A stretch of DNA of 64,000 nt from Anaerolineaceae bacterium (GTDB lineage Bacteria > Chloroflexota > Anaerolineae > Anaerolineales > Villigracilaceae), in the NCBI GenBank assembly GCA_009772985.1, contig WOUS01000011.1, positions 1-64,000 of the forward strand, given 5' to 3'. Positions 5,411 to 14,594 of the stretch are shown here, piece after piece. The position numbers were made by a program, and so were the translations under genes. The notes under the pieces are model-generated. The model did no database searches. It was not told the origin of the DNA and was given only the letters and a program-made list of their open reading frames with translations. Numbering within the stretch: position 1 is the stretch's first letter; the number at the start of each line of letters is the position of its first letter.

Positions 5411-8400
5411 TTACGTGCCGGTCGCCACCGGCGTGACCGTGGGCGTATCGGTCGGCGGGACGGGGGTATCGGTGGGCGCAACAGGCGTGGGCGTCTCGGT
5501 CGAGGTGGGCGTCGGTGAGGGGGTCTCGGTTGGCGTGGGCGTCTCGGTCGGGGTGGGCGTCGGCGAGGGGGTCTCGGTGGGGGTCGGGGTGGGCGTCGGC
5601 AGGCGCAGGTTCAGGCGGACGCGCTTCTCGGCGTACCCGCCGTTGGTGCTCAACAGGTAGATGCGCAGGGTGACGACCGTCCCTTTGACGGCGCTCAAAT
5701 CCCACGAGTAGACGTTCGTGGCCGTGGGGTACTGCGCCGTGGTCGGGTGCAGCAGGTAGGTCCAGTTGCGCCCGTCGGTGCTGTAATCCAGCAGGAAGGA
5801 TTTGAAATTCCCGCCGCTGGCGATCACGCTGATGTCGAGCGGGTTGGCGGCGACCTCCATGTTGTCGCGCAGGCCGACCAATTCAAGACGCGGGCGCGGG
5901 TCGGCGGAGGTGCATTCGCGCACCGGGGCGAAGATGACGGTTTCAGGGAAGCCCATCGTGCGATACCAGAGTTGTCCGTCCGGTTTATTGCGGATCCAAT
6001 CCTGGGCGAAGGGATCGGCCGCGTTCAGCACCACGAAATCCTTGGTGTATTCGGAGCATTGCCCTGAGGCGCGCAGGTTGGTCCACGTGTCGAGCGTCAC
6101 CTTCTGCCAGAGGTCCTGGCTGGCGGGCAGGGGCGGCTGGCCGGAGGCGAAGTATTCGCTGCGCTGGTTCGGGCACCACTGCGACGGCTCGGCGCCCGAT
6201 TCGACGCAGATGACCCGGGTCTCGATGCCGGCCGGCGGGAGGAAGGGCGTGGGGTTGCCGCCGGTCAATTGCTGGATGGCAGCGGTCATGAAATGCGCCC
6301 AGACGGGCGCCGCGCCGCTCAGGCCGGTGGTGCGTTCCATCGAGGTGTAGTCGGCGTTCCCCACCCAGACGCCCACCGCCAGGTCCGGGGTGTAGCCGAG
6401 CGTCCAGTTGTCGTAGACGTTGTGCGTATCGGCGCCTTTGGGGTCCCCGGCCGTGCCGGTCTTGACCGCCGCCGGGAAGGGCAGGTTCAGGATCGAGTTC
6501 GAGCCGAACATGGGGGCGCGGGCGGAATTGTCCGAGAGGATGGACGAGATCAGGAAGGCGTGCTCGGCGCGCACCACCTGCTCGCCGGGCGGCGGCTCGT
6601 ACTGGTAGACCACCTTGCCGGTGTGATCCACGATCTTGAGGATCGCCACGGTCGGCACCCGCTTCCCGCCGTTGGCAAGGACGGCGAAGCCGCCGGTCAT
6701 CTCCAGCAGGCTGACCTCGCCGCCTCCCAGGGTGAGCGACATGCCGTAGTCGTCGCGCGTCAGGCTGGTGAAGCCCAGACGTTCAGTCATGGCGACCAGT
6801 CCGCCGTCGCCGTAGATGCCGGTGAATTGCAGGGTCTTGACGGCGGGGATGTTGTACGAGTTCGCCAGCGCCGTGCGGACGGTGACCGGGCCGTGGGACT
6901 TCCCGTCGTAGTTGACCGGCGCGTACGGCTCGCGCGGGTCGTTCGGGTCGCCGGAGGGCGGGAACTCCGACGGCACGTCCCAGATGAGCGTGGCGGGCGT
7001 CCAGCCTTTCTCGAAGGCGGCCAGGTAGGTGAACGGTTTGATGGACGATCCCGGTTGGCGTGTGGGGCTGACGGCCATGTTGACCTGCCCGGAGATGGCA
7101 ACGTTGTAGAAATCGGCCGAGCCAACCATTGCCAGGATCTCGCCCGTGGAGGGGCGGATGGCGACCAGCGCCCCGTCGGTGACGTGGCGGTCAGCCAGGG
7201 CGGACACCTGGTCGCTGACCATCTGCTGGGCAATATCCTGCAGGCCGGGGTCGAGCGTGGTGTAGACGGTGAAGCCGGAGCGGTAGATGGTCTGCGGGTC
7301 GTACTGCGCTTCCAGTTGGGCGCGCACGTACTGCACCCAGTGCGGGTAGCGCATGTCCACGCTCACCGGCCGGAACTGGTAGTTCTGCATCTCGCTGACC
7401 GCCTGCGCGGCCGTGGCGGCGTCCACGCAGATCGGTTCCGGGTTGTTGCTGACGTAGATGCAGTTGCGCTCCGCGCTCAACTGGACCATCAGCACCGCCA
7501 CTTCCTGGTTGCGTCTCAGCGTCTCGTCGCGGTTGGTGTGGATGTCGTACACGCCGGGGGCCTGCGGCAGGCCGGCCAGGAAGGCCGCCTCGCCAAGCGT
7601 CAACTGGTTGGCAGACTTGCCGAAATAGGTCTCGGCGGCGGCCTCGATGCCGTAGGCCAGGCTGCCGTAGTAGATCTCGTTCAGGTAGAGTTCGAGGATC
7701 TCGTCCTTGCTGTAGCGGCGGGTGATCTCGGCGGCCAGGATGATCTCACGGATCTTGCGCAGGTACGTGCGCTGGCCGCGTTCCTCCGGCGACAGGAGCA
7801 GGATGCGCGCCAACTGCTGGGTGATGGTCGAAGCCCCGCCGCCCTCCCCGCCGGTGGTCAGGTTGACCCACAGGGCGCGGGCGATGGCGATGGGATCGAA
7901 GCCGGGGTGCGAGTAGAAATCCTTATCCTCGGTGGCAATGGTTGCGGCCACCAGGTAGGGCGAGATCTCGTCGAGCGTCACGTAGGTGCGCCGCCCGGCG
8001 TTGGGGTCGAGGATCTCGTAGAGCAGGTTGCCGTTCCGGTCGAGGATGCGCGTCGTCTCGAACTGTGAGGCGCGCGCCCGCAGGTCTTCCACGCTGGGCA
8101 GGGTGGAGGCGATGGCGTAGTATTCGTAAATGCCGAAGGTCAGCAGGAGCAGTGTGAGGACGACCAGGGCGAAGATGGAGGCGATGACGCCGCGCAGGAA
8201 ACAGCCCAACGCCCGCTTCCTGCCCGTCCGTTTGCGCGCCGGCGGGCGTTTCGCGGTCGGCGTGTGTTCGTAAGCCGCGGGCGTGACGCGCGTGGCGGCC
8301 AGGTCCACCTCCTCCACGCGCTGCGGGAGCGGCTCGTCCGGCGCGGGCGGCGCGGCCGGGCGGATGACGCGCACGCGCGTCTGGCCGGTCGGCGTGACCG

Positions 8401-8485
8401 GTTCGGGAGGCGGCTCCGCCTGCGTCTCGGCTTCCGATTCGGTCAGGCGGCGGATTTTCACGCGGGGGTCTTCGGGGCTGGGCAT
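5411..8485 (-). CDS. Class A penicillin-binding protein (transglycosylase/transpeptidase)
   Basis: This bifunctional 1024-residue peptidoglycan synthase polymerises glycan strands and cross-links peptides outside the membrane. A basic, Pro-rich cytoplasmic tail precedes one transmembrane helix (~95-118). The GT51 transglycosylase follows, with ATEDKDFYSHPGFD as the catalytic Glu block and the STITQQLAR block. The transpeptidase has Ser480-x-x-Lys483 in GSSIKP, an SYN-like ANSYN, and KTGTAG. An Ig-like region and a tail of about 60 residues of near-perfect Thr/Pro repeats end the protein. The Thr/Pro tail makes the antisense strand look like a repeat array; it is coding. ATG 8485 sits 6 nt after an extended -10 box. 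Confidence 0.94.
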   Translation of the reverse strand: MPSPEDPRVKIRRLTESEAETQAEPPPEPVTPTGQTRVRVIRPAAPPAPDEPLPQRVEEVDLAATRVTPAAYEHTPTAKRPPARKRTGRKRALGCFLRGVIASIFALVVLTLLLLTFGIYEYYAIASTLPSVEDLRARASQFETTRILDRNGNLLYEILDPNAGRRTYVTLDEISPYLVAATIATEDKDFYSHPGFDPIAIARALWVNLTTGGEGGGASTITQQLARILLLSPEERGQRTYLRKIREIILAAEITRRYSKDEILELYLNEIYYGSLAYGIEAAAETYFGKSANQLTLGEAAFLAGLPQAPGVYDIHTNRDETLRRNQEVAVLMVQLSAERNCIYVSNNPEPICVDAATAAQAVSEMQNYQFRPVSVDMRYPHWVQYVRAQLEAQYDPQTIYRSGFTVYTTLDPGLQDIAQQMVSDQVSALADRHVTDGALVAIRPSTGEILAMVGSADFYNVAISGQVNMAVSPTRQPGSSIKPFTYLAAFEKGWTPATLIWDVPSEFPPSGDPNDPREPYAPVNYDGKSHGPVTVRTALANSYNIPAVKTLQFTGIYGDGGLVAMTERLGFTSLTRDDYGMSLTLGGGEVSLLEMTGGFAVLANGGKRVPTVAILKIVDHTGKVVYQYEPPPGEQVVRAEHAFLISSILSDNSARAPMFGSNSILNLPFPAAVKTGTAGDPKGADTHNVYDNWTLGYTPDLAVGVWVGNADYTSMERTTGLSGAAPVWAHFMTAAIQQLTGGNPTPFLPPAGIETRVICVESGAEPSQWCPNQRSEYFASGQPPLPASQDLWQKVTLDTWTNLRASGQCSEYTKDFVVLNAADPFAQDWIRNKPDGQLWYRTMGFPETVIFAPVRECTSADPRPRLELVGLRDNMEVAANPLDISVIASGGNFKSFLLDYSTDGRNWTYLLHPTTAQYPTATNVYSWDLSAVKGTVVTLRIYLLSTNGGYAEKRVRLNLRLPTPTPTPTETPSPTPTPTETPTPTETPSPTPTSTETPTPVAPTDTPVPPTDTPTVTPVATGT

Positions 8486-8508: not shown

Positions 8509-8537
8509 TTGACTTCTTTTCCAACTACCTATACAAT
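8509..8537 (+). promoter_or_regulatory. Promoter of the MBOAT/SGNH cassette
   Basis: TTGACT (8509-8514), a 17-nt spacer and TACAAT (8532-8537) make a good vegetative promoter. Transcription from it would run through the structured region at 8569-8701 before reaching the first gene. Confidence 0.65.
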
Positions 8538-8701: not shown

Positions 8702-8727
8702 TTGAATCTTTGTCTGGAGACCACGCC

Positions 8728-8856
8728 ATGCCCCCCCTGCTCAAGCGCATCTTCTCGCGTGAAAACCTGCTGGCCCTGCTGCTCAGCCTGATCCTGACCG
8801 CCCTGGTGATCTTCACCGCCGGGACTTCGCCAACCTGGATCTACCAGGGCTTCTGA
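8728..8856 (+). CDS. DltX-like membrane microprotein (42 aa) with C-terminal WIYQGF motif
   Basis: This small ORF starts at ATG 8728, with GGAG 8 nt upstream. Its TGA overlaps the ATG of the MBOAT gene by one base (TGATG), so the two are translationally coupled. The product has a short basic N-terminus (LLKRIFSRE), one hydrophobic helix (~residues 13-31) and a polar end reading TWIYQGF. DltX, the microprotein of the teichoic acid D-alanylation operon, has the same size, one helix, and a C-terminal FIYNEF motif whose Tyr works with the MBOAT protein DltB. The match at [F/W]-I-Y-x-x-F and the position before an MBOAT gene support a DltX-like role as acyl carrier. Homology cannot be proven by eye at this length. 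Confidence 0.7.
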   Translation: MPPLLKRIFSRENLLALLLSLILTALVIFTAGTSPTWIYQGF

Positions 8857-10277
8857 TGTCCATCCTGAACATTTTCATCCTTGCCGCCCTGGCCGCGCTG
8901 GCGGGACTGCTGCGCAAAGGCCGCGGGCTGGCGCTGCTGTTCGTCAGCGCGCTGGCGGTCTACTGGCTGGGGACGCGCTTCGACAACAGCAGTTACACCT
9001 TCTGGATTCCCACCGGGACCCTCGCCCTGGCCGCCGTCTCCTGGGCCTTGACCGCGCCGCCGGAGGCGCGCGCCTCCCGCCGCAACCTGCCGGGCTTTGT
9101 CATCCTGATGGCCGCCAGCCTGCTGGCGTCGCTCAACCGTTACTTCCAGATCGAACCATTCTTTGCCACAACGACGCCGCGTGTCCAGGTCGCGGCGGCC
9201 TTCTGGCTGGTCCTGCTGGCCGGACTGGCCGCGCTGGCGTTCCTCCTGCGCCGCGGCCGCGGACAGCGCGCCCTGCTGATCCTGGCCGTGATCGGGGGCA
9301 TCGCGCTGCTGGCGCTGGTCAAATCTCCCGCGCTGACCGGCAGGCTGTACGGCCTGGTCAATTCCCTGCGCGGAGGGGGCGCCGAGTCTGTGCCGTTTGC
9401 CTTCCAGTGGCTGGGATTTTCCTACGTGGCCTTCCGCCTGCTGCACACTTTCTTCGACCGCCTGTCGGGACGTCTGCCCGCTGTCAGCCTGGACGAGTAC
9501 GTGACCTACGTCATCTTCTTCCCGGCCTTCACTGCCGGACCGATTGACCGCATCGAACGCTTCCTGAAGGACCTGCGCGACCCGCGCCCGGTCCGGGCGG
9601 CGGACTGGCTGGAGGCCGGGCGGCGGTTCTTCACCGGCCTGTTCAAGAAGTTCGTCCTGGCCGACGCGCTGGCGCTGGTCTCCATCGGCGCGTTCGCGCC
9701 TTTCGTCCGCACACCGGGCTGGGCCTGGCTGGTGCTGTATGCCTACGCCTTCCGCCTGCTGTTCGATTTCAGCGGCTACACCGACATCGCCATCGGCATG
9801 GGCCTGCTGGCGGGCATCCGCCTGCCGGAAAACTTCGCCTCCCCGTATCTCAAGCCCAACCTGACCCAGTTCTGGAACTCCTGGCACATGAGCCTGACGC
9901 AGTGGTTCCGGGCCTACTTTTTTAATCCGTTGGTGCGCGGCTTCCGCTCGGCGCGCAAGCCGCCGCCCGCATGGATCATCATCGCCATTGCCCAGTTCGG
10001 CACGATGACGCTCATCGGCCTGTGGCACGGCATCTCCTGGAATTACGTGCTGTGGGGACTCTGGCACGCGGCGGGACTGTTCGTCCACAACCGCTGGAGC
10101 GAGTGGACGCGCGTCCGCGCCGCCGCCTGGGCCGCCACTCCCGCCCGCAAGGTGCTGCTCAACGTGACCGGCATCCTGGTTACGTTCCACTACGTGGCCC
10201 TCGGCTGGGTCTTCTTTGCCCTGACCACCCCCGCCCAGTCGTGGGTGTTCTTCCTGAAATTGTTCGGCCTGGCGTAG
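8856..10277 (+). CDS. MBOAT-family membrane O-acyltransferase (DltB/AlgI-like)
   Basis: This polytopic membrane protein of 473 residues moves an activated acyl group across the membrane towards an extracytoplasmic acceptor. MBOAT hallmarks are present: the FPAFTAGPIDR block, DFSGYTDIAIG, QFWNSWHMSLTQWFR with His344, and the catalytic His391 in LIGLWHGISWNYVLWG. Length fits DltB and AlgI. It overlaps the microprotein gene upstream by one base and is followed 15 nt later by an SGNH-fold partner, the usual MBOAT-SGNH arrangement for envelope polymer acylation. No DltA ligase or DltC carrier gene is nearby, so the acyl donor may be acetyl-CoA or another activated acyl supplied elsewhere. Confidence 0.92.
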   Translation: MSILNIFILAALAALAGLLRKGRGLALLFVSALAVYWLGTRFDNSSYTFWIPTGTLALAAVSWALTAPPEARASRRNLPGFVILMAASLLASLNRYFQIEPFFATTTPRVQVAAAFWLVLLAGLAALAFLLRRGRGQRALLILAVIGGIALLALVKSPALTGRLYGLVNSLRGGGAESVPFAFQWLGFSYVAFRLLHTFFDRLSGRLPAVSLDEYVTYVIFFPAFTAGPIDRIERFLKDLRDPRPVRAADWLEAGRRFFTGLFKKFVLADALALVSIGAFAPFVRTPGWAWLVLYAYAFRLLFDFSGYTDIAIGMGLLAGIRLPENFASPYLKPNLTQFWNSWHMSLTQWFRAYFFNPLVRGFRSARKPPPAWIIIAIAQFGTMTLIGLWHGISWNYVLWGLWHAAGLFVHNRWSEWTRVRAAAWAATPARKVLLNVTGILVTFHYVALGWVFFALTTPAQSWVFFLKLFGLA

Positions 10278-10292
10278 GCTGCCGGAGGACGC

Positions 10293-11438
10293 GTGAGCGA
10301 TTCTAATAAAAACGATACTCCTTCCATCCATCCCGCCCGCGTGGCGGTCAAGGCCCTGCTGCTGTTCCTCGCCTTCAACCTGGTTTATGCGGCGGTGCGC
10401 GCCTCGCCGGGATGGTTCATCGTCATCCGGCGCGGCGGATACGAGCGCTTCCCCGCCCTGTGGCTCCCCGACGTGCACAACGACGGCTCGGTCTCCATCG
10501 GGCGGGAAATGTTCTCGAACATGGACGTGCTCTTCGCCTCGCACATCCTCACCCGCCCCAAAGCCGCGGACGAGTTCCGCGTGTTCATCTTTGGCGACTC
10601 GTCGGTGTGGGGTACGGCTCTCTATCCCGAGCAGACCGTGGCGGGACAGATCAACCAACTCGACCTGCGCACCTGCTCCGGCCAGCGCGTCGTGGCCTAC
10701 AACCTCGGCTACCCGTCCAACTCGGCCACCAAGGACCTGCTCTTCATGCAGCGCGCCCAACAATACCAGCCCGACCTGAATGTCTGGCTGTTTTCCATGC
10801 TGGCCTTCCAGCGCATCCGGCAGGACGTGCCGTTCGTGGTGGACAATCCGCTCGCGGTGCAGGAACTGATGACGGAGTATGGACTCCCCCACGATGCCAG
10901 CAAGTTGTCGGTCCCGCCCGACCCGCTTTGGGGCGCGACCATCGCCGGCCAGCGGCGCGACCTAAACCTGCTCGTCCGCCTCCAGGCTTCCACTCTGCTA
11001 CTCGGCGCGCTCGGCATGGACGACCCGCGCATTGTTCACGAGGGCGGTATCCATTTTCAGGATACTCCCAAAGCCTCCAATGATTTTTTCGGCATCTTCC
11101 CGCCCGCCAACCTGAGCGGGTATCTGGCGTATGAGACGCTGCCCGTGGCCTCCGCCATCACCGGCGGAAAGATCATCTATGTCGGCGAGCCGATTGAAAT
11201 TTCCACCGGCGTGTTCAGCGACATTTCGTACAACTCCTTTTTCCCCCGCTGGGCGTACGACCAGTTCCGCCAGGTGGTGAGCGGCATGAGCGCGGAGGGC
11301 GGCTGGACGTATCTCGACCTGTGGAATATCATCCCGGAGCAGCAATTCTCCACCTCCATTTTCCACCTCCTGCCGGAAGGCGAAGCGGCCCTGGCGGCGC
11401 GCCTGTCTGAGACCATCCTCCTCTCCGCCTGCCCGTAG
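10293..11438 (+). CDS. Membrane-anchored SGNH-hydrolase-like protein, MBOAT partner (DltD/AlgX-like)
   Basis: This 381-residue protein has an N-terminal signal anchor (~residues 10-32) and an extracytoplasmic SGNH-like domain. Block I is IFGDSSVWG with nucleophile candidate Ser103; YNLGYPSNS fits block II; the final block has His358 in FHLLPEGE. The Asp normally three residues before that His is missing (the position is Ser in STSIFH), so the triad is altered or the Asp comes from elsewhere. DltD and AlgX/AlgJ-type SGNH proteins take acyl groups from their MBOAT partner and place them on polymers. Start is GTG 10293 with GGAGG just upstream at slightly short spacing. Confidence 0.8.
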   Translation: MSDSNKNDTPSIHPARVAVKALLLFLAFNLVYAAVRASPGWFIVIRRGGYERFPALWLPDVHNDGSVSIGREMFSNMDVLFASHILTRPKAADEFRVFIFGDSSVWGTALYPEQTVAGQINQLDLRTCSGQRVVAYNLGYPSNSATKDLLFMQRAQQYQPDLNVWLFSMLAFQRIRQDVPFVVDNPLAVQELMTEYGLPHDASKLSVPPDPLWGATIAGQRRDLNLLVRLQASTLLLGALGMDDPRIVHEGGIHFQDTPKASNDFFGIFPPANLSGYLAYETLPVASAITGGKIIYVGEPIEISTGVFSDISYNSFFPRWAYDQFRQVVSGMSAEGGWTYLDLWNIIPEQQFSTSIFHLLPEGEAALAARLSETILLSACP

Positions 11439-11456: not shown

Positions 11457-11527
11457 TTAACCGCGGAGACCGCGAAGTACGCGGAGAGTTCAAAACTCTC
11501 TGCGTACTCTGCGAACTCTGCGGTAAA
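11457..11527. repeat. Inverted element made of 9-bp words (CGCGGAGNN)
   Basis: The left arm (11457-11490) repeats a word like CGCGGAGAC every 9 bp; the right arm (11494-11527) is its near-complement with words like CTCTGCGTA. The loop is 3 nt. It fills the gap between the SGNH gene and the glycosidase promoter and may also work as a terminator, though it has no T-tract. Confidence 0.75.
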
Positions 11528-13949: not shown

Positions 13950-13989
13950 TCCCGGTTCTTGCACGGGGCGCCGACTGACAGGAGGCCCG

Positions 13990-14328
13990 ATGGACCGTTC
14001 CCCGATTCGACATTTGATGCTGGCCATTGTCCAGGAACAGGACGTGGACCTGGCAGTGCGCGGCCTGGGCGTGCTGGAGGTGCCGGTCATCCATCTCTCC
14101 AGCACGGGCGGTTTCCTGGGGCGGCGCAACGCCACCCTGCTGGTGGGGCTGCCGGCGGGGAGCGAGGAACAGGTGCTGGTGGAATTGCAGAAGTCCTGCC
14201 GCCAGCGCGTGGAATACCTGGCCGTCCCGCTGGAGGGCGCGCCGCTGCCGCTCCCCACTCCCGTCCCGGTGACGGTGGGCGGGGCGACTGCTTTTACCAT
14301 TCCGGTGGAACGATTCGAGGAGTTTTAG
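13990..14328 (+). CDS. Cyclic-di-AMP receptor-like PII-fold protein (DarA/CdaR family), copy 1
   Basis: This cytoplasmic protein has 112 residues. The pattern RHLMLAIVQEQDVDLAVRGL, then HLSSTGGFLGRRNATLLVGL, and a C-terminal TAFTIPVERFEEF matches the PII-like DUF970 (YaaQ/DarA) family. That family binds cyclic-di-AMP as a trimer through the SSTGGFL-type loop. ATG 13990 follows ACAGGAGGCCCG. The next paralogue starts 2 nt after its stop. Known members are one-domain signal receptors whose partner is often unknown. Confidence 0.85.
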   Translation: MDRSPIRHLMLAIVQEQDVDLAVRGLGVLEVPVIHLSSTGGFLGRRNATLLVGLPAGSEEQVLVELQKSCRQRVEYLAVPLEGAPLPLPTPVPVTVGGATAFTIPVERFEEF

Positions 14329-14330
14329 CC

Positions 14331-14594
14331 ATGAAACTGATCATTGCCATCCTGAGTGACCATGATGCGGATCCCGTTACCCAGGCGCTGACCGCGGGCC
14401 GCTTCCGCGTGACGCGCACCGCCAGCACTGGCGGCCTGCTGCGCCGCGGCGCCACCACCCTGCTGATCGGGGTGGACGACAATCAGGTGGAGGCGGCCAT
14501 TGCCGTCATCCGCGAGACGTGCGCCCCGGCCGCGCAGGGCGAGAAGCGCGCCACGGTGTTCGTGGTGCCGGTGGAGAGGTTCGAGCAGGTTTAA
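14331..14594 (+). CDS. Cyclic-di-AMP receptor-like PII-fold protein, copy 2
   Basis: The 87-residue paralogue of the preceding gene shows the same order: KLIIAILSDHDADPVTQAL, TRTASTGGLLRRGATTLLIG, and FVVPVERFEQV. It lacks the inserted segment of copy 1 that precedes the final strand. ATG 14331 lies 2 nt after the upstream stop, so the two are surely co-transcribed; a strong terminator follows. Tandem copies may form hetero-oligomers or divide ligands between them, but that is inference. Confidence 0.85.
   Translation: MKLIIAILSDHDADPVTQALTAGRFRVTRTASTGGLLRRGATTLLIGVDDNQVEAAIAVIRETCAPAAQGEKRATVFVVPVERFEQV

Follow-up and report, generated by a model that had tools for sequence, protein, structure and literature searches.

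A DltX-like microprotein, an MBOAT and an SGNH protein as the likely membrane half of a carrier-dependent acyl relay in Anaerolineae

Does a gene trio that looks like part of the Dlt pathway, and that stands apart from any donor genes, belong to Dlt or to an acyl relay of another kind? The question is raised by positions 8728-11438 of a 64,000-nucleotide stretch of contig WOUS01000011.1 from an Anaerolineaceae bacterium (GCA_009772985.1; this whole stretch is the window), in which an earlier note had described a 42-codon open reading frame (ORF) for a one-helix protein ending in WIYQGF, coupled by TGATG to a gene for a membrane-bound O-acyltransferase (MBOAT) and followed by an SGNH gene. All of this can be read in the window sequence, and the analogy to DltX that had been drawn from it holds for the topology, the C-terminal hexapeptide and the gene order X-B-D. 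We consider it likely that the three genes represent the membrane-bound half of an acyl relay that resembles Dlt and uses acyl groups bound to an acyl carrier protein (ACP) and supplied by a fatty acyl-AMP ligase (FAAL). The genes and the positions that matter for this reading are:

8728..8856, + strand: microprotein, 42 aa, with a basic N-terminus, one hydrophobic helix and the C-terminal sequence PTWIYQGF; conserved and under purifying selection
8836..8853, + strand: codons of the WIYQGF hexapeptide; Tyr39 (8842-8844) is the proposed acyl acceptor
8856..10277, + strand: MBOAT acyltransferase, 473 aa, DltB-like, without a C-terminal shuttle motif of its own
9885-9887 and 10026-10028, + strand: codons of MBOAT His344 and His391, both invariant
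10293..11438, + strand: SGNH/GDSL-fold protein, 381 aa, with a GTG start and an N-terminal transmembrane helix (14-35)
10599-10601, 11316-11318 and 11364-11366, + strand: codons of SGNH Ser103, Asp342 and His358, all three invariant

The ORF at 8728-8856 (+) translates to MPPLLKRIFSRENLLALLLSLILTALVIFTAGTSPTWIYQGF, followed by the stop, and its TGA (8854-8856) shares one base with the ATG of the MBOAT gene (8856-8858).

The microprotein ORF is a real gene. A small ORF that ends in the relaxed motif [FWY][IVLM]Y..[FWY]* adjoins the MBOAT gene in 50 of the 56 distinct loci of the window-type MBOAT clade that have more than 600 bp of upstream sequence, in a search of the kind that the earlier note had proposed. 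Among the six exceptions, the C-terminus of the microprotein is masked by N in L048, and the microprotein lies 2.1 and 1.2 kb upstream of the MBOAT gene in L114 and L046; the other three are weighed below. Selection at the protein level, which had also been anticipated, is evident from the proportions of synonymous (pS = 0.68) and nonsynonymous (pN = 0.24) differences among 50 sequences, compared over their last 32 codons, and from a median omega of 0.29 for pairs with pS<0.6. P, I, Y, Q, G and F never change in these sequences although different codons are used for them, the invariance of QGF being conditioned on the choice of the set by [FWY]IYQGF*; in relaxed scans, small ORFs immediately 5' of MBOATs of the clade had no other ending. 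IYQGF is also invariant in the microprotein alignment A1, with the C-terminal P.WIYQGF as the most conserved stretch, and conservation reaches the N-terminal REN and the helix too.

The class extends well beyond one genome, as had been suspected. When 400 Chloroflexota genomes were searched with a profile, the microprotein was found in 34, which are exactly the 34 with a clade MBOAT (Fisher p 4e-50, a value that, like all co-occurrence p-values given here, is inflated by species kinship). In G349 the two are encoded on different contigs, and one further weak profile match, in G347 (E 8.5e-4), was taken as chance. Adjacency, the pS/pN values and the genome-level co-occurrence with the MBOAT together rule out a chance ORF or a frame artefact. 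The statement that the gene is too short for gene callers was only partly true, as a plasmid record of Leptolinea sp. HRD-7 annotates the microprotein, which is paired with the MBOAT there, as a 47-aa hypothetical protein (BCY19582.1). The one search made beyond the phylum, a seed-based scan of genome contigs, returned outside Chloroflexota only MBOATs with the motif fused to their own C-terminus.

WIYQGF fits the published FXYXXF acyl-shuttle motif save for a W in place of the first F (PMC12148441), and [WF]IYQGF* with its invariant Tyr is conserved in the family. The Pfam family DltX (PF12459) scores Enterococcus and Chloroflexota DltX above its cut-off, and matches neither the window microprotein, nor 23 family members, nor the Leptolinea copy; in the window's own genome nothing exceeds the cut-off. 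When microprotein and DltX profiles were aligned with hhalign, a probability of 93.7 (E 1.8e-7) was obtained over the C-terminal 27 columns, driven by PxFIYQGF, and the two proteins are likely homologous as judged from this short stretch. Because the microprotein has a basic N-terminus and a single hydrophobic helix, its sequence suggests that the C-terminus lies outside the cell.

The window MBOAT belongs to PF03062 (E 3.6e-20), and DltB is the only solved structure matched by its sequence (E 1e-40). An AlphaFold2 model (pLDDT 88), computed from an alignment that left out two rows from plasmid records, matches the fold of DltB first, followed by PORCN and HHAT. His344 and His391 align with His289 and His336 of DltB (numbering of PMC11035591). 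A shuttle motif on the MBOAT itself is ruled out, as the protein ends in ...FFLKLFGLA. The other MBOATs of the clade likewise end without the motif, and the more distant MBOATs that we collected end in FIYxxF or FLYxxF. In an unrooted tree, drawn with a midpoint, the fused-motif MBOATs, the Dlt MBOATs and the window-type clade fall into three fully supported groups, and support is 100/99 for the branch that parts the fused-motif MBOATs from Dlt plus the window-type clade; therefore, the microprotein-dependent MBOATs group together. With 218.6 bits, the window MBOAT stays below the DltB cut-off of 375 (TIGR04091).

The third protein has a weak SGNH/GDSL-like match in Pfam, and a sequence search against the PDB gave only chance kinase matches. 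Its SGNH fold is indicated by an AlphaFold2 model, for which Foldseek matched SGNH hydrolases, with DltD (7dxm) among the fold matches. Ser103, the serine of the GDS motif, is invariant together with Asp342 and His358. The DltD family (PF04914), which gives 419 bits for Enterococcus DltD, does not match the window protein.

Where, then, would the acyl group come from? The earlier note had reported that DltA and DltC are absent, and this stands in so far as the window locus has no ligase or carrier and no protein of the genome passes a cut-off: the best DltA score (TIGR01734, cut-off 559.85) was 80 bits elsewhere on contig C23, and the only DltC match (TIGR01688, cut-off 52.35) was an ACP on the same contig with 17.1 bits. 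However, the idea of a genome without any ligase or carrier had to be rejected, because these searches, which found no family member, pointed to contig C23 beside a second MBOAT copy. There, the order is microprotein, MBOAT, SGNH, SGNH, SGNH-like lipoprotein, ACP and FAAL-type ligase, the last scoring 33.5 bits with the DltA model. Related loci show the same arrangement: of the 47 clade loci whose downstream sequence exceeds 5.5 kb, an ACP follows in 28 and an ACP plus FAAL in 27, in the order X-B-D-C-A. The partner ligase gene is:

L066:11096-12790: FAAL partner gene, with FAALs as closest PDB matches

The nearest solved relatives of the ligase are 3pbk (E 2e-79) and 3kxw (5e-72), both FAALs, and then relatives of FadD32 and FadD28; its alignment with 3pbk continues across the residues that follow YAMAEN, which we take to be the place of the FAAL-specific insertion. 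We count it as a FAAL, being closer to FAALs than to fatty acyl-CoA ligases or DltA and having this presumed insertion. Its top NCBIfam match is the fatty acyl-AMP ligase model, below the cut-off of 600. The insertion is a hallmark of FAALs, which load holo-ACP rather than CoA (review, PMC11837247). The phosphopantetheine serine is kept in 32 of 32 distinct ACP sequences. Two FAAL frames (G080:C8:42054-43724 and G046:C8:345865-347541) contain one internal or terminal TAA within the matched part and may be pseudogenes or sequencing errors. A second, lipoprotein-like SGNH protein, SG3 (L066:9650-10603), is often encoded between the SGNH gene and the ACP. A gene for a lipoprotein-like protein of about 130 aa without a Pfam family (L066:5490-5876, +) has homologues upstream of the microprotein in 27 of 55 loci. 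In the C23 copy, the TGA of this gene and the ATG of the microprotein overlap as ATGA; no homologue was found by the window copy.

Canonical Dlt at the window locus is ruled out by the family cut-offs. It does occur in the phylum, which corrects the picture of Chloroflexota given in the earlier note: canonical dltC-(dltD)-dltX-dltA-dltB operons, some seen only in part, are found in several Chloroflexota families (L155, L156, L157, L158, L160, L161, L162, L073, L076), their small ORFs are recognised by Pfam DltX and end in STPxFIYQGF or similar, and three genomes of the window's own family (G028, G248, G269) have both canonical Dlt and the microprotein-MBOAT system. One could still argue that the latter is Dlt in function, with the FAAL-like ligase loading D-alanine or another small acid onto the ACP and a teichoic-acid-like polymer as target, since the MBOAT is nearest to DltB, the hexapeptide matches that of the other Chloroflexota DltX proteins, and the gene set and order resemble dlt. 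We regard this as unlikely, as the ligase is FAAL-like and far below the DltA cut-off, no match to the DltA, DltC, DltX or DltD families passes its threshold, and the system would be redundant in the three genomes that also have canonical Dlt. Judged from sequence, the system is Dlt-like in its presumed mechanism and not a Dlt member by family tests.

The association with the donor genes is also seen at the genome level. FAAL relatives (E<=1e-80) are present in 32 of the 34 genomes with a clade MBOAT and in 3 of the 366 others (p 2e-41), and within the class in 32 of 34 versus 1 of 21 (p 9e-12). Of the 34, 33 encode an ACP, in many cases without linkage to the MBOAT gene, and in G283, G262, G349 and G037 the MBOAT, FAAL and ACP genes are each on separate contigs; therefore, co-occurrence is more telling than neighbourhood alone. 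This bears on the possibility that the MBOAT draws on acyl-CoA in the manner of PatA, with FAAL and ACP serving another step, such as making a lipid acceptor. Other MBOAT-SGNH systems use acyl-CoA (PMC12148441), and some MBOAT copies, the window's included, have no adjoining ACP or FAAL. Nevertheless, FAAL and ACP accompany the MBOAT in a nearly one-to-one manner, also where the genes are dispersed in the genome, and a carrier protein is the acyl source of DltB, its closest relative (PMC12148441). Both points make an acyl-CoA donor improbable.

Several observations weigh against a relay fed by FAAL and ACP. Neither gene is present at the window locus itself. G055 has the MBOAT and the microprotein, and neither ACP nor FAAL was found there; in G176, which has a clade MBOAT, no FAAL was found. 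Conversely, three genomes with a FAAL relative have no MBOAT of the clade: G224 encodes both FAAL and ACP, and G011 and G260, which are distant, have only the FAAL relative. In L043, L044 and L054 a clade MBOAT is present and no microprotein was seen nearby; for 10 of 52 loci, the adjoining downstream stretch gave no SGNH relative. The usual SGNH Asp three residues before the His, as in DltD, is not conserved, and the invariant Asp342 lies 16 residues earlier. The first of these points would also fit a window copy that is a stranded paralogue, having lost its donor genes and no longer working with acyl-ACP, and the nearest MBOATs in the tree do include loci with ACP and FAAL next door (L002/L031, L004/L091, L012/L039). 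We nevertheless doubt this explanation, because none of the three genes is damaged, the motif and the putative catalytic residues have been preserved, and the genome still encodes the cognate ACP and FAAL; several other genomes likewise keep them unlinked. A role of the microprotein as a mere scaffold that joins MBOAT and SGNH protein, with a Tyr that is not acylated, could be suggested by the conserved REN and helix as docking elements, and is very unlikely, as conservation is highest at the C-terminal P.WIYQGF with its invariant Tyr, the equivalent of the motif acylated in PatA and DltX (PMC12148441).

The relay that we favour would work as follows. A FAAL-type enzyme would load the acyl group onto the dedicated ACP in the cytoplasm; for the window copy, FAAL and ACP of contig C23 may act in trans. 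Acyl-ACP would dock to the MBOAT from inside. By means of His391 and His344, the MBOAT would take the acyl group over from the phosphopantetheine and hand it through the membrane to Tyr39 in the microprotein. From there it would be transferred to Ser103 in the SGNH protein, which is anchored in the membrane and would esterify an extracytoplasmic envelope molecule. The relay role that the earlier note had assigned to the microprotein fits an MBOAT that is nearest to DltB, has no fused C-terminal motif and keeps both His; that an acyl-Tyr is formed is what we infer. The acyl group is probably a fatty acid, because the ligase is of the FAAL class. Conserved polymer-synthesis genes as a hint to the acceptor were considered and rejected: when 90 neighbours were assigned to Pfam families, most were release factor, signal recognition particle GTPase and similar genes, which gave no clue to the acceptor. 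We are evenly divided on the wider proposal of an envelope-acylation pathway in Anaerolineae, in which a fatty acyl group from FAAL and ACP would pass via a DltB-sister MBOAT and the Tyr of a separate 42-aa shuttle to an SGNH transferase, a "fatty-acyl Dlt" alongside or instead of D-alanylation.

Around the three genes, two possible expression signals were read from the sequence:

8509..8537, + strand: promoter-like site TTGACT-17-TACAAT, about 190 bp 5' of the microprotein, with 10/12 consensus bases; a consensus match only
8716..8719, + strand: Shine-Dalgarno-like GGAG, 8 nt 5' of the microprotein ATG

A class A penicillin-binding protein gene (5411-8485, -) is divergent from the locus. Just 3' of the SGNH gene, at 11497-11523, is a short CTCTGCG-type repeat that exceeds chance expectation in shuffles, and the product of an ORF at 13959-14594 (+) has a cyclic-di-AMP receptor domain (PF06153) at its C-terminus.

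MBOAT/SGNH pathways other than Dlt have been described as having no DltX-like microprotein and as evidently using acyl-CoA (PMC12148441). If our reading is true, a second microprotein-dependent clade, statistically tied to FAAL and ACP, would break both halves of this rule; the layout of carrier protein plus separate shuttle would then be a general module, in which another ligase can bring in another acyl group, and bacteria may use a Dlt-type relay for more than D-alanine. It would also offer a set of five genes, amenable to experiment, with which the passage of acyl groups through membranes can be studied, and a testable envelope chemistry for Chloroflexota. In the openly licensed literature we found no paper that combines "fatty acyl-AMP ligase" with MBOAT, or MBOAT and SGNH with "acyl carrier protein"; an earlier description elsewhere is possible.

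Compared with known systems, the set is closest to the DltA-DltB-DltC-DltD-DltX system of Bacillota, with which it shares a separate one-helix microprotein with a C-terminal [FW]IYxxF, an MBOAT that has the same pair of His and no C-terminal motif, a candidate membrane-anchored transferase of SGNH fold, and a carrier protein and adenylating ligase encoded in the same genomes. It differs in that the ligase is FAAL-like and not DltA, the ACP is not DltC, Pfam DltX and DltD do not recognise the microprotein and the SGNH protein, and the MBOAT forms a separate clade below the DltB cut-off. PatA/PatB likewise combine an MBOAT and an SGNH protein, and they too have a C-terminal hexapeptide of the FXYXXF type whose Tyr is invariant. 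However, in bacterial MBOATs of the PatA kind this hexapeptide is at their own C-terminus, as opposed to DltX in Dlt (PMC12148441) and a separate 42-aa protein here, and their donor is acyl-CoA, whereas we propose acyl-ACP. Stand-alone FAAL and ACP pairs of lipopeptide and polyketide pathways, such as JamA-JamB (PMC11837247), also have a FAAL-class ligase and a dedicated ACP encoded nearby, but their partner is a polyketide synthase or non-ribosomal peptide synthetase and not a membrane relay of MBOAT, microprotein and SGNH protein. The relay chemistry itself is already established for DltX and PatA, in both of which the motif has been shown to be acylated (PMC12148441); what is new here is the separate microprotein outside Dlt and its partnership with FAAL and ACP.

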